32,355 nt of DNA, taken from positions 4,651 to 37,005 of the forward strand of contig NZ_KI271607.1 in NCBI RefSeq assembly GCF_000469325.1. Direction: 5' to 3'. The stretch is from Schleiferilactobacillus shenzhenensis LY-73 (GTDB lineage Bacteria; Bacillota; Bacilli; Lactobacillales; Lactobacillaceae). Position numbers and translations under genes: made by a program. Below are positions 29,121-32,355 of this stretch, one piece after another. The notes below the pieces were generated by a model. It made no database searches, had not been told where the DNA came from, and worked only from the letters and a program-made list of their open reading frames with translations. Position 1 is the stretch's first letter. Each line of letters begins with the position of its first letter.

Positions 29121-29313
29121 TGTTCGGGACATGCAGCCCGCCCCGTACCGCTTCAGAGAAGCTCCGGTCAGTGCAAGGAGTGCGGTACCCCAGGCTGTGC
29201 TACCCAATGGACTAACGATTACAATTTAATCAATATAAAGTGGTAATGACGAACATCATTGCAATCAAGGTGGTACCGCGTGTAAGCGCCCTTGAATGCG
29301 ATGATGTTTTTTT
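29121..29313 (+). promoter_or_regulatory. T-box leader of alaS
   Basis: The leader senses uncharged tRNA-Ala. Stem I is built from GGG/CCC (29126-29128 with 29203-29205), GCAGCC/GGCTGT (29133-29138 with 29193-29198) and GTACCGC/GCGGTAC (29145-29151 with 29182-29188). An AGAGA motif (from 29155) and an apical GGTCAGTGCAA loop top it. The specifier codon candidate is GCT (29199-29201, Ala), followed by A. The T-box AAGGTGGTACCGCG (29267-29280) has TGGT, whose last base suits the A discriminator of tRNA-Ala. The terminator stem 29252-29270 with 29290-29308 and a T-run is exclusive with the antiterminator, so uncharged tRNA-Ala raises alaS expression. The whole is standard T-box logic; the specifier assignment is inferred from hand folding. 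Confidence 0.9.
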
Positions 29314-29341
29314 ACCGTGATGGAAGAAAGAGGCAGACGAT

Positions 29342-32008
29342 ATGAAAGAAATGAGCAGTGCCCAACTGCGCCAAACGTTCCTGGATTTCTGGAAATCAAA
29401 GGGCCACGATGTGGAACCTTCCGCATCCCTGATCCCCAAGGATGATCCCACGTTGCTCTGGATCAACTCTGGGGTCGCCACGTTGAAGAAGTACTTCGAC
29501 GGCACCGTTATTCCCAAGAATCCGCGCATCACCAACGCCCAGAAGAGTATCCGCACCAACGATATTGAGAACGTGGGCAAGACCGCCCGGCACCAGACCT
29601 TCTTCGAGATGCTCGGGAACTTTTCTGTCGGTGATTACTTCAAGAAAGAAGTCATCCCCTGGGCCTGGGAACTGCTGACGGACCCCAAGTGGTTCGGCTT
29701 CGATCCCGAGCGTCTGTACATGACCGTCTACCCCAAGGACACGGAGACGTATCAACTGTGGCAAGACGTCGGGGTGAAGAAAGACCATATCGTTCTGGCC
29801 GAAGACAACTTCTGGGATATCGGCGGCGGCCCTAGCGGCCCGGACTCCGAGATCTTCTATGACCGCGGTCAAAAGTACAACAACGTGGCGGAAGACGACC
29901 CTGAGAATTATCCTGGCGGCGAGAACGAACGCTACTTAGAGATTTGGAACATTGTCTTTTCTGAATTCAATCACCTGCCCGACGGCCGTTACGTGGAGCA
30001 GCCCCACAAGAACATTGATACCGGGATGGGCCTGGAGCGGGTGCTGTCGATTTTCCAAGACGCCCCAACGAACTTCGAGACCGACTTGTTCCTGCCGATG
30101 ATCCGCGAAGCCGAGAAGCTGAGCGGCAAGAAGTACGGGGTGAACAAGAAGGACGACGTCAGCTTCAAGATCATTGCCGACCACGCCCGGGCCGTCACCT
30201 TCGCCATCGGTGATGGGGCACTGCCGTCCAATGAAGGCCGGGGCTACGTGCTTCGCCGGCTGATTCGTCGAGCCGTGCTGAATGGCAAGAAGCTGGGCAT
30301 CGACAAGCCCTTCCTGTTTGATCTAGTGCCGGTCGTCGGCGAGATCATGAAGAGCTATTACCCGGAACCGCTGGCCCAGAAGGACTTCATTTCTCACATC
30401 ATCAAGGGCGAGGAAGAAAGATTCCAGGCCACCTTGAACGATGGCTTGGACATTCTGGACGGTCGTATTGCCGACTTGAAGAAAGCTGGGGAGAAGACAT
30501 TCCCGGGCAGCGATGCCTTCAAGTTGTTCGATACTTACGGCTTCCCGCTAGAGCTGACCGTGGAGTCCGCGGCCGATGAAGGTCTCCAAGTCGACGTCGC
30601 CGGTTTCAAGGCCGCGATGCAGGAGCAGAAAGACCGTGCTCGCGCTGCCCGCAAGGATGTTAACTCGATGGGGTCACAAAATAAGCTCTTAATGGACATT
30701 AAGGAAGAAAGCCAATTCACTGGTTACGATGAGTTGACCACCACTGGGGCGAAACTGACGCACTTGATCGTGAAGACGACCCAGGGCGACCAGCAAGTCG
30801 ACAAGGAAGTCGATGCGGTCACCAGCGGCCAGGCCGAATTATTGTTCGACAAGACGCCGTTCTATGCTGAAATGGGCGGCCAAGTCGCGGATAAAGGGAC
30901 GATTGAGGATCGTGCTGGAAATGTCGTCGCCAAAGTCACTGATGTCCAGCACGCACCGAATGGCCAGAATCTGCACTTTGTGGATGTGGTCGGCAATCTG
31001 CAGGCTCATCAGACCTACACCTTGAAGGTCGACCGCAGCTTCCGCCTGGCCGTGCGCAAGAACCACACGGCCACCCATTTGCTGGACCAAGCCCTGCGCG
31101 AAGTCCTCGGCGGGCACACACACCAGGCGGGTTCCTTAGTCGAACCCGATTATCTGCGCTTCGACTTCAACCACCAAGGACAAGTGACACCGAAAGAATT
31201 ACAGAAGCTGGAAGATATCGTTAATAGCAAGATTTTTGCTGAGATTCCCGTGAAGACCACGGAGACCGACCTCGAGACTGCCCAGAAGATGGGGGCGATC
31301 GCATTGTTCACCGACAAGTACGGTGACCGGGTGCGGGTCGTGAACATCGGCGACTGGTCCATCGAACTGTGCGGTGGCACCCACGTGAAGAATACGGCCG
31401 AACTAGGCCTGTTCAAGATCACCTCGGAGTCCGCCATTGGTGCCGGTGTGCGGCGCATTGAAGCCGTTACCTCCCAAGCTGCTGTGGCGTATCTGGACAA
31501 GCAGCTGCACCTGCTTCACGAGACGGCCGGCATCGTCAAGGCCAACCAGATCCAAGACACACCGGAACGGGTCAGCCAGATGCAGCAAGACCTCAAGAGC
31601 AGTGAGAAAGAGCTCGCCGGTCTGCAAGCAAAGATGGCAGCGGCCCAAGCCAATTCCGTCTTCGACCACGCCACAGACATCAATGGCCTACAAGTGATTA
31701 CCGCCCAGGTCAACGTTGACGGCATGAATGCCCTGCGCCAGATGGTCGACCAGTGGAAGAGTAAGGATGCGTCTGACGTGCTGGTTCTGGCCACTGAAGC
31801 CAACGGCAAGGCCAACCTCATCGCAGCCGCGAATAAGAAAGCCCAAGGCCAAGGCATCAAAGCCGGCAACCTGATCAAAGCCATCGCACCCATCGTTGGT
31901 GGCGGTGGCGGCGGCCGGCCCGATATGGCCCAGGCTGGCGGTAAGCAGCCGGAGAAAATCCCGGCTGCGTTGGCGGCGGTGAAGGATGCTGTGACGGCGG
32001 GGAAATAA
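29342..32008 (+). CDS. alaS: alanyl-tRNA synthetase
   Basis: AlaRS charges tRNA-Ala and clears mischarged Ser or Gly. The 888 residues contain a class II aminoacylation domain (about 1-240), a tRNA-recognition domain, an editing domain and the C-terminal C-Ala/DHHA1 part. Editing motifs HTATH (H575, H579) and CGGTH (C677, H681) bind the zinc. The glycine-rich GGGGGGRPDMAQAGG near the C-terminus is the usual C-Ala signature. ATG 29342 has AAAGAGG (29326-29332) after the T-box terminator. Length and motif order are ordinary. The C-terminus is followed by a gene-free repeat cluster. Confidence 0.97.
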   Translation: MKEMSSAQLRQTFLDFWKSKGHDVEPSASLIPKDDPTLLWINSGVATLKKYFDGTVIPKNPRITNAQKSIRTNDIENVGKTARHQTFFEMLGNFSVGDYFKKEVIPWAWELLTDPKWFGFDPERLYMTVYPKDTETYQLWQDVGVKKDHIVLAEDNFWDIGGGPSGPDSEIFYDRGQKYNNVAEDDPENYPGGENERYLEIWNIVFSEFNHLPDGRYVEQPHKNIDTGMGLERVLSIFQDAPTNFETDLFLPMIREAEKLSGKKYGVNKKDDVSFKIIADHARAVTFAIGDGALPSNEGRGYVLRRLIRRAVLNGKKLGIDKPFLFDLVPVVGEIMKSYYPEPLAQKDFISHIIKGEEERFQATLNDGLDILDGRIADLKKAGEKTFPGSDAFKLFDTYGFPLELTVESAADEGLQVDVAGFKAAMQEQKDRARAARKDVNSMGSQNKLLMDIKEESQFTGYDELTTTGAKLTHLIVKTTQGDQQVDKEVDAVTSGQAELLFDKTPFYAEMGGQVADKGTIEDRAGNVVAKVTDVQHAPNGQNLHFVDVVGNLQAHQTYTLKVDRSFRLAVRKNHTATHLLDQALREVLGGHTHQAGSLVEPDYLRFDFNHQGQVTPKELQKLEDIVNSKIFAEIPVKTTETDLETAQKMGAIALFTDKYGDRVRVVNIGDWSIELCGGTHVKNTAELGLFKITSESAIGAGVRRIEAVTSQAAVAYLDKQLHLLHETAGIVKANQIQDTPERVSQMQQDLKSSEKELAGLQAKMAAAQANSVFDHATDINGLQVITAQVNVDGMNALRQMVDQWKSKDASDVLVLATEANGKANLIAAANKKAQGQGIKAGNLIKAIAPIVGGGGGGRPDMAQAGGKQPEKIPAALAAVKDAVTAGK

Positions 32009-32064
32009 CCAGTAGTCTGCGGTGTTAGAGGGGCGCTCGACCGCCCAGAGGAGTTCTGGCGGGC

Positions 32065-32086
32065 AGGCCGCCATGGTCTGAGGACC
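32065..32086 (+). repeat. second repeated block (AGGCC...GTCT.AGGACC), copy 1
   Basis: AGGCCGCCATGGTCTGAGGA and two more bases recur at 32236-32257 with four changes, on the same strand. It shows that at least two different repeat units are interleaved here. Confidence 0.65.
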
Positions 32087-32097
32087 TGTTGCCGCTC

Positions 32098-32155
32098 CTA
32101 AACGAGCTCCGCCGAGCAGAAGCTAGGGGCTAAGGGCAAAGTCGGGTAAAACCTA
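32098..32155 (+). repeat. 58-base direct repeat, copy 1
   Basis: It starts TAAACGAGCTCCGCCGAGCA and ends GGGTAAAACCTA. The second copy begins exactly 200 bases downstream; the first third is almost identical and the final 12 bases are identical, with scattered changes between. Confidence 0.8.
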
Positions 32156-32207
32156 AGACCGGGTTTTCCCCGCCTTCGCCCTTAGCCCTACGCTTCTCCC
32201 GCTCGGC
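32111..32207. repeat. long imperfect inverted repeat (stem of about 43 bases)
   Basis: The arm 32111-32153 (from GCCGAGCAGAAGC to GTAAAACC) is complementary, with several mismatches and small gaps, to 32161-32207 (from GGGTTTTCCCC to GCTCGGC), leaving a seven-base loop. In RNA or single-stranded DNA it would form a long hairpin. Confidence 0.75.
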
Positions 32208-32215
32208 TCCGCCCT

Positions 32216-32237
32216 CTAAACGGGCTCCGCCGAGCAG
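32216..32237 (+). repeat. partial copy of the repeat core
   Basis: CTAAACGGGCTCCGCCGAGC and the next two bases repeat the first 22 bases of the 32098 copy with one change. The GAAGCTAGGG part does not follow; a different repeated block does (AGGCC...AGGACC). Confidence 0.75.
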
Positions 32238-32257
32238 GCCACCACAGTCTAAGGACC
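32236..32257 (+). repeat. second repeated block, copy 2
   Basis: AGGCCACCACAGTCTAAGGA plus CC is the partner of the block at 32065-32086. It directly follows the partial core copy at 32216-32237. Confidence 0.65.
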
Positions 32258-32297
32258 GTAACGTAAAAACCCAAGTGCGGGACTTTCCCCGAGCTGC

Positions 32298-32355
32298 GTA
32301 AACGGGCTCCGCGGCCCAGAAGCTAGGGCATAAGGCGGGGCAAGGGTAAAACCTA
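32298..32355 (+). repeat. 58-base direct repeat, copy 2 (to the window edge)
   Basis: It begins GTAAACGGGCTCCGC and ends GGGTAAAACCTA exactly at the window edge. It is related to the copy at 32098 at a spacing of 200 bases and may continue beyond the window. Confidence 0.8.

Follow-up and report, generated by a model that had tools for sequence, protein, structure and literature searches.

The repeat cluster that lies downstream of alaS in Schleiferilactobacillus shenzhenensis LY-73 is probably a stack of non-autonomous mobile elements, each of about 120 nt, that would act as folded DNA (single-stranded or cruciform) at the boundaries of transcription units. We put the probability of this reading, which places the elements among repeats of the ERIC, REPIN and MITE kind, at roughly 0.6. 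The cluster closes the 32,355-nt stretch of DNA that was analysed (hereafter the window). Copies of its hairpins are dispersed through this and related genomes, show compensatory change without an excess of G·U in their varying pairs, and mostly face promoters or terminators with one particular end.

Composition of the cluster and architecture of the hairpins

The first-pass annotation of this region described a 58-base unit that recurs exactly 200 bases apart, with a partial copy between the two and an inverted arm next to the first, and saw in them an interleaved mosaic. The units at 32098 and 32298 are indeed similar but are not exact copies, since they share 43 of 58 bases (84% over a 37-nt core, with an exact 12-mer at 32144/32344). 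What was taken for a repeat unit is merely the left half of a complete 118-nt hairpin (Table 1), and the inverted arm, which does adjoin the first copy, is not a separate feature but belongs to the same fold (arms of 36 nt at 32118-32153 and 32162-32197, 83% complementary). The partial copy is present, and the apparent 200-base period is the length of the hairpin (118) plus that of this half unit (82). The second copy breaks off at the window edge as described, but the edge is the end of contig C26 (37,005 bases) and the remainder of the copy lies on contig C47; when the end of C26 and the start of C47 were joined with N4 between them, they folded as a single hairpin of -86.6 kcal/mol. The mosaic appearance is explained by stacked copies, the older ones without a right arm, together with the contig break. 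The leftmost unit, a decayed remnant, aligned to the L154 element with a local score of 39, compared with a maximum of 24 in shuffles (n=500).

Table 1. Features of the alaS-ireB region of S. shenzhenensis (genome G000). Positions are those of the window unless a contig is given.
Feature	Position	Strand	Basis or remark
alaS (alanine--tRNA ligase)	29342..32008	+	left neighbour; NCBIfam TIGR00344
Decayed remnant of B-type left arm, CGGGCAGGCCGCCATGGTCTGAGGACC	32060..32086	+	local alignment to L154 element
Complete A-type hairpin, AAACGAGC...GCCCTCT, 118 nt	32100..32217	+	folds; R2 structure-model match of 121.5 bits (model partly built from this element, which is also row 1 of alignment A2)
B-type half copy without its right arm, retaining apical loop and left arm, short tail	32217..32298	+	nhmmer, repeat search
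Second A-type hairpin, left arm, broken at loop by contig end	32300..32355	+	two-contig fold
Right arm of second A-type hairpin	G000:C47:1-57		opens contig C47
Full B-type element	C47:58-179		followed by ireB promoter
Right neighbour of alaS (presumed ireB), ATG	C47:270		start codon via stretch common to L053/L054

The known parts of the gap between alaS and its right neighbour, which we take to be ireB, sum to 616 bp in S. shenzhenensis; the distance from alaS to the same start codon is 111 bp in S. harbinensis (L053) and 155 bp in S. perolens (L054). The promoter stretch ATTCGTTAGAAT is retained, and the R1 structure model found no element at either of their alaS-ireB loci (the R1 scan, over 80 loci, gave matches in L089 and L068 only). 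On the other side of alaS, window positions 29230-29320 contain AAGGTGGTACCGCG and, after it, a hairpin and T-run that resemble a terminator, presumably a T-box-like leader, for which Rfam reported nothing at its gathering score.

Full copies in the S. shenzhenensis genome, 117-123 nt in length, were aligned as type B (28 copies, alignment A1, which omits one odd 129-nt copy, L145:2514, among 29 of this type) and type A (12 copies, alignment A2). The elements start with AAACGGGC, finish with GCCCTCT or nearly so, and share a plan that consists, from the base, of a 4-bp stem, a 3x3 internal loop, a 7-bp stem, a bulge on the right arm, a long upper stem and a short apical loop. A larger set of 137 full elements was drawn from fetched stretches of the same genome (50 elements) and of its two genus-mates, S. 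harbinensis DSM 16991 (G001) and S. perolens DSM 12744 (G002; 34 and 53 elements from the two), candidates with more than two end mismatches or a dG above -56 being discarded and the window copy being added by hand. The internal loop reads TNC/TN(C,G) in 88 of 134 elements and is fully paired in 30 of 134, three of the 137 having been excluded from this count; in the complete window hairpin it is TCC (32108-32110) / TCC (32208-32210). The bulge is AACC in 75 of 137 elements, and the apical pattern, a broad one, is present in 115 of 137. We propose that an enzyme recognizes these conserved unpaired parts (the TNC/TNC internal loop, the AACC-type bulge and the apical CCNAA..CRGG) and would tolerate nearly any stem sequence provided that pairing holds.

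The apical loop of many copies, AAGTGCGG (e.g., L136 and L138), is like the Haemophilus DNA-uptake core AAGTGCGGT, a likeness that is probably a coincidence since other copies read AAGCCCGG or AAGACCGG. In addition, assembly breaks, N runs or duplicated stretches around an N were seen at L144, L146, L147, L149, L153 and the window end, and the same faults were seen in S. perolens at L242, L247, L256 and L259. These faults are probable artefacts of the palindromes, and the hairpins mark intergenic spots at which assemblies break.

Compensatory change in the stems

Changes on both sides of a pair occurred in 24 of 46 pairs of A1 and 21 of 45 pairs of A2, and 96.3% and 96.9% of cells, respectively, were paired, compared with at most 52.4% (A1) and 57.7% (A2) in slid-register controls. 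The covariation score was reached by none of 500 shuffles in either alignment, and the number of pair types by 10 of 500 (A1) and 18 of 500 (A2). Stems that vary by compensatory Watson-Crick changes, with no excess of G·U, around loops and a bulge that persist are characteristic of folded DNA. The arms might also be kept alike if one served as template for repair of the other, but this is disfavored because such repair should erase the conserved mismatches.

The extensive covariation and the very stable folds would also suit a structured RNA, such as an mRNA stabilizer, a terminator or a small RNA, and the composition of the pairs bears on this. A hairpin kept as RNA is expected to tolerate G·U better than A·C. 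In 42 mostly Watson-Crick pairs of alignment A3 (three of 45 pairs being left out, as were 23 of 112 rows in which the start motif was not AAACGGGC-like, mostly opposite-strand matches), the 89 rows gave 3643 Watson-Crick, 23 G·U, 32 A·C and 22 other cells, such that G·U accounts for less than 1% of cells and is no commoner than A·C. The corresponding counts for 44 pairs of A1 (two of 46 left out) were 1201, 6, 13 and 11. By comparison, 11 tRNAs from the studied loci, parsed with a noisy procedure that was partly off register, gave 133 Watson-Crick, 17 G·U, 4 A·C and 33 other cells. The lack of a G·U excess over A·C in the varying pairs thus argues for folded DNA and not RNA.

The pairs omitted from A3, each under 85% Watson-Crick, comprise one with G·T/T·G in 71 cells, one with T·G in 72 cells and a third with 16 A·C, and with all 45 pairs included G·T would outnumber A·C. 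The two G·T-rich pairs are nearly fixed and adjoin loops, and we regard them as fixed loop edges because, unlike intermediates, they do not swap with Watson-Crick pairs; this is a judgement and a weakness of the argument, since in a top-strand RNA the same two conserved positions would be G·U wobbles. Nevertheless, the copies are found ahead of promoters or past terminators, and the Rfam search of the window gave no match at gathering score and, below it, 16 weak matches to microRNA families that were far under the cut-offs. With these observations and the pair counts taken together, an RNA function is quite unlikely.

Boundary placement, polarity and turnover of sites

Right flanks were compared for 126 rightmost copies, 10 of the 137 elements being dropped because another unit came next and one because its flank was masked (L231:2085, which another unit follows, escaped the exclusion rule and was counted). 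An A5 tract starts within 20 nt of the right end in 47 of these 126 copies, at a distance of 0-13 nt (mostly 2-6), and is followed by a hairpin in 42 of the 47, the arrangement expected of a terminator that serves an opposite-strand gene. Shuffled flanks contained such a tract in a mean of 2.9 and a maximum of 8 cases (n=200 shuffles), mirrored left flanks contained A5 in three cases and T5 in none, and a T5 tract was present on the right flank of 9 of the 126. Among the 79 copies without A5, a promoter-like pair scored at least 9.5, the threshold of a simple in-house score, in 39, compared with a background of 5.8% in shuffled flanks and of 3.8% among left flanks, and 31 of the 39 -35 boxes start 1-12 nt from the element. 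Neither an A5 tract nor a promoter match at threshold was found for 40 of the 126 copies. None of these counts rests on our rough gene caller, which is too crude for neighbour statistics. The same tendency was seen in Lacticaseibacillus zeae, where A5 occurs in 7 of 20 right flanks (two of the 20 have a further unit next) and A5 or T5 in 1 of 20 left flanks, and back-to-back pairs (L263, L256 and L259) have both right ends outward. The question of the first-pass annotation whether copies lie at gene ends can be answered in terms of the right end, which mostly lies beside a terminator T-tract or a promoter-like -35 box. Elements are proposed to insert where a transcription unit begins or ends, such that the right end is left a few bases outside the -35 box or terminator T-tract; selection could also be the cause of the boundary placement.

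Incomplete copies follow the same polarity. Of the 121 loci, 48 contain left-arm half copies, and these stand on the left side of intact elements 70 times and on the right side three times (the two units at the contig end of the window and one masked unit in L146); right-arm halves lie to the left in eight cases and to the right in two, and ten intact copies have another unit immediately after them. This pattern is most simply read as addition of new copies beside the boundary and loss of the right arm from old ones. A later element would thus join on the same side of the boundary and displace older copies away from it, the displaced copies would decay, chiefly through loss of the right arm, and elements may also disappear when short direct repeats at the hairpin base recombine in a deletion. 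We infer that this order of addition is general. The elements offer a natural system in which to study the maintenance of DNA hairpins in bacteria, their movement and their targeting to promoters and terminators.

The very tight placement beside a -35 box or T-tract and the conservation of the unpaired motifs could also reflect an architectural element of the host, that is, a cruciform or protein-binding hairpin that serves as an insulator, supercoil buffer, or gyrase or nucleoid-protein site and is maintained by selection and spread by gene conversion. An architectural role of the gyrase/nucleoid-protein type has been reported for BIMEs. Comparison of sites bears on this alternative; it was made between species, and speaks of turnover at that level and not of recent transposition. 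A loose neighbourhood rule applied to the fetched sets identified seven same-site loci between S. shenzhenensis and S. harbinensis, six between S. shenzhenensis and S. perolens, and nine between S. harbinensis and S. perolens, and most sites were unshared. Nineteen same-site pairs, chosen by eye (7 of 9, 4 of 9 and 8 of 11 rows in the three comparisons, those left out having a weaker neighbourhood or being a second copy at their site), had a mean identity of 71%, compared with 67% for random between-genome pairs, 73% for random within-genome pairs and a mean of 92% for the best match in the own genome, and the same-site partner ranked 2 to 41. Since same-site identity is only slightly above random, sites are shared more than sequences. 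These shared sites with unlike copies are what an architectural element would lead one to expect, as is L287/L313, at which L. zeae and its near relative G263 are both occupied by different copies. Nevertheless, most sites are unshared, two relatives have no element at the alaS site, close relatives differ in their copies, and 243 of 301 family genomes gave no match (at most 11 candidates scored in each), and we therefore consider an architectural role unlikely.

Turnover at single sites is consistent with the mobile-element reading. At L294, L. zeae and G263 both carry an element that L. chiayiensis lacks, and the one at L304 is common to L. zeae and G263. No clean target duplication could be read at the empty site L294/L308, where the alignment falls short of base resolution. 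This is relevant to an ordinary MITE of a DDE insertion sequence, which would likewise be small, dispersed, non-coding and bounded by inverted ends; given the unreadable target duplication and outer ends that have only a 4-bp common stem while the stems vary, such an origin is improbable on this evidence. One site, L305, was found in three states. In L. chiayiensis an old, weakly folding copy of 117 nt lies beside the terminator; in L. zeae only the left arm of such an old copy remains (45 of 53 aligned columns) and a new intact element stands at the boundary; and in G263 the left arm is accompanied by the scar TAACGCGCTCA at the position of the new element of L. zeae. In this scar, the left and right element ends are joined at a 6-base direct repeat, and L305/L307 is the one site at which an excision-like scar was aligned to a relative; a scar-like remnant, TAAACGGGCTCCGCCCTCT, also occurs at L142 in S. 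shenzhenensis. Because the three-state site and the excluded G·T-rich pairs pull in opposite directions, our confidence in the main reading is unaltered by them.

Dispersal, candidate enzymes and known repeat families

A 347-base query gave at least 87 matches in the S. shenzhenensis genome (best 40 of 71 candidates scored), which rules out the local duplication that the first-pass annotation had set against a dispersed element, and among the matches listed by the structure models all three Schleiferilactobacillus genomes are rich. A DNA-level search of 41 relatives recovered just four genomes, those of the genus together with G013, and overlooked a large part of what the structure model detected. 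At E<=1e-4, R1 matched 58 of 301 Lactobacillaceae genomes in 16 of 40 genera, and three or more matches were found in 34 genomes of seven genera (at most 11 candidates scored per genome throughout); the remaining 24 of the 58 have one or two matches, which may be chance hairpins. Of 27 named genomes, 15 match and 12 do not, with model matches, which are not copy numbers because a palindrome can match on both strands, numbering 61 in L. zeae, 58 in S. perolens, 55 in L. chiayiensis, 50 in Secundilactobacillus similis, 34 in S. harbinensis, 33 in S. collinoides, 19 in L. zhaodongensis, 12 in S. kimchicus and 1-9 in seven more. Seven loci of other genera (L280-L286) retain, as judged by eye, the base stem, loop, bulge and long stem. 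An order-wide search at 1e-5 matched 12 of 246 genomes, eight of them Lactobacillaceae; the other four have 1-2 matches each, which may be chance hairpins. Searches of plasmids with one A element and of phages with one B element gave no blastn match, a weak test since the stems diverge. The elements would thereby form a large repeat family, new to bacteria of food and probiotic use such as L. zeae. In the G013 genome, also of the Lactobacillaceae, tandem copies with a spacing of 124 bases were observed (G013:C7:31614-31904; loci L042, L045 and L048).

Mobility would be conferred in trans by a putative enzyme that recognizes the folded form. The Y1 transposase domain PF01797, which bears on the suggestion of the first-pass annotation to look for a RAYT-type transposase, was not found in any of the three element-rich Schleiferilactobacillus genomes, the same search being positive in 5 of 14 control genomes. 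Across the family it is present in 93 of 301 genomes and is slightly enriched among genomes with elements (25 of 58) relative to the others (68 of 243; odds ratio 1.95, Fisher p 0.028). This association, the logic of folded single-stranded DNA and the dispersed intergenic palindromes all fit a REP/REPIN-type element moved by a Y1 (RAYT / IS200-IS605) transposase; however, 33 of the 58 element-bearing genomes have no PF01797 and 68 carriers have no element, which excludes Y1 as a requirement and makes an element of this type hardly credible. The enzyme search, which covered Y1 (PF01797), found no mobilizing enzyme or autonomous copy. We offer only tentatively the broader proposal of a family-wide class of folded DNA in Lactobacillaceae that is mobilized in trans, guided to edges and added with polarity by a putative recombinase that is neither a Y1 enzyme nor an integron integrase.

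Several known systems share parts of this description. Integron attC sites are folded single-stranded hairpins of 57-141 nt that have conserved unpaired bases, form polar arrays and carry the core GTTRRRY...RYYYAAC. The present elements resemble them in the folded hairpin with conserved unpaired bases and in the polar arrays, but the core is not at the element ends (AAACGGGC / GCCCTCT, by eye) and no cassettes lie between copies; GCCTAAC is present on the right arm of B-type copies. Polar addition might, by analogy, represent integron-like logic without cassettes, an interpretation that we regard as doubtful. The EFAR of Enterococcus faecalis are miniature insertion sequences that insert at stem-loop targets and consist of two hairpins built from modules. 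Efa-1 is described in PMC2267715 as a 163-nt pair of adjacent stem-loops. Compared by description, EFAR are similar as miniature insertion sequences of a related order and differ from the single hairpin found here.

ERIC, a 127-bp palindrome of enterobacteria according to PMC2267715, likewise forms one long imperfect stem-loop, comparable in size, and is dispersed, non-coding and present in many copies; a long single stem-loop is a feature of many families. ERIC belongs to another phylum, and the portion of that account available for this comparison by description mentions neither stacked half copies nor a polarity that faces boundaries. REPs are palindromes of 20-40 bp, many with GTAG ends, in the available parts of PMC3116915 and PMC3733652. 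As these sources describe REPs, REPINs and BIMEs, our elements share with them the dispersed extragenic palindromes, the single-stranded DNA hairpin and the proposed non-autonomous mobility, but are 117-123 nt long with AAACG...CTCT rather than GTAG ends. The resemblance to REP/BIME-like or MITE-like repeats noted in the first-pass annotation thus holds if the terms are taken broadly, for any small non-coding palindromic repeat, whereas REP or BIME proper is unsupported because these are single hairpins of about 120 nt, not 20-40 bp REPs, and PF01797 was not found in the three genus genomes. MRSC-65-2, a long single covarying stem with dozens of copies per genome, is proposed to be a selfish element in PMC11109978; the authors of that study also consider that its importance may lie at the DNA level, and their main text does not mention Lactobacillus. 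The long covarying stem and the many copies per genome are shared with it; judged by motif and not by a model, its UYCCGG repeat occurs in 10 of 137 elements, and in none on the other strand.

In the family-specific sequence and enzyme tests that were run, no diagnostic feature of a known family was found, and the single long stem-loop was present. A literature search, with subscription journals mostly outside its coverage, yielded no recognized description of this hairpin family, which is no proof of novelty. The elements belong to dispersed palindromic mobile DNA, and their distinctive features are boundary placement and polar stacking.

Finally, S. perolens contains a second dispersed palindromic repeat of roughly 200-250 bp (GTGCCAATGCGGAGCAATCGGAGG...GATTGCGCAGCATTGGCAC), often to the left of the hairpin element (L247, L252, L239, L242, L264 and others), and a similar-looking repeat with the common stretch GCGTTCCAGCCCC occurs in S. 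shenzhenensis (L148, L153, L157, L158 and L168).
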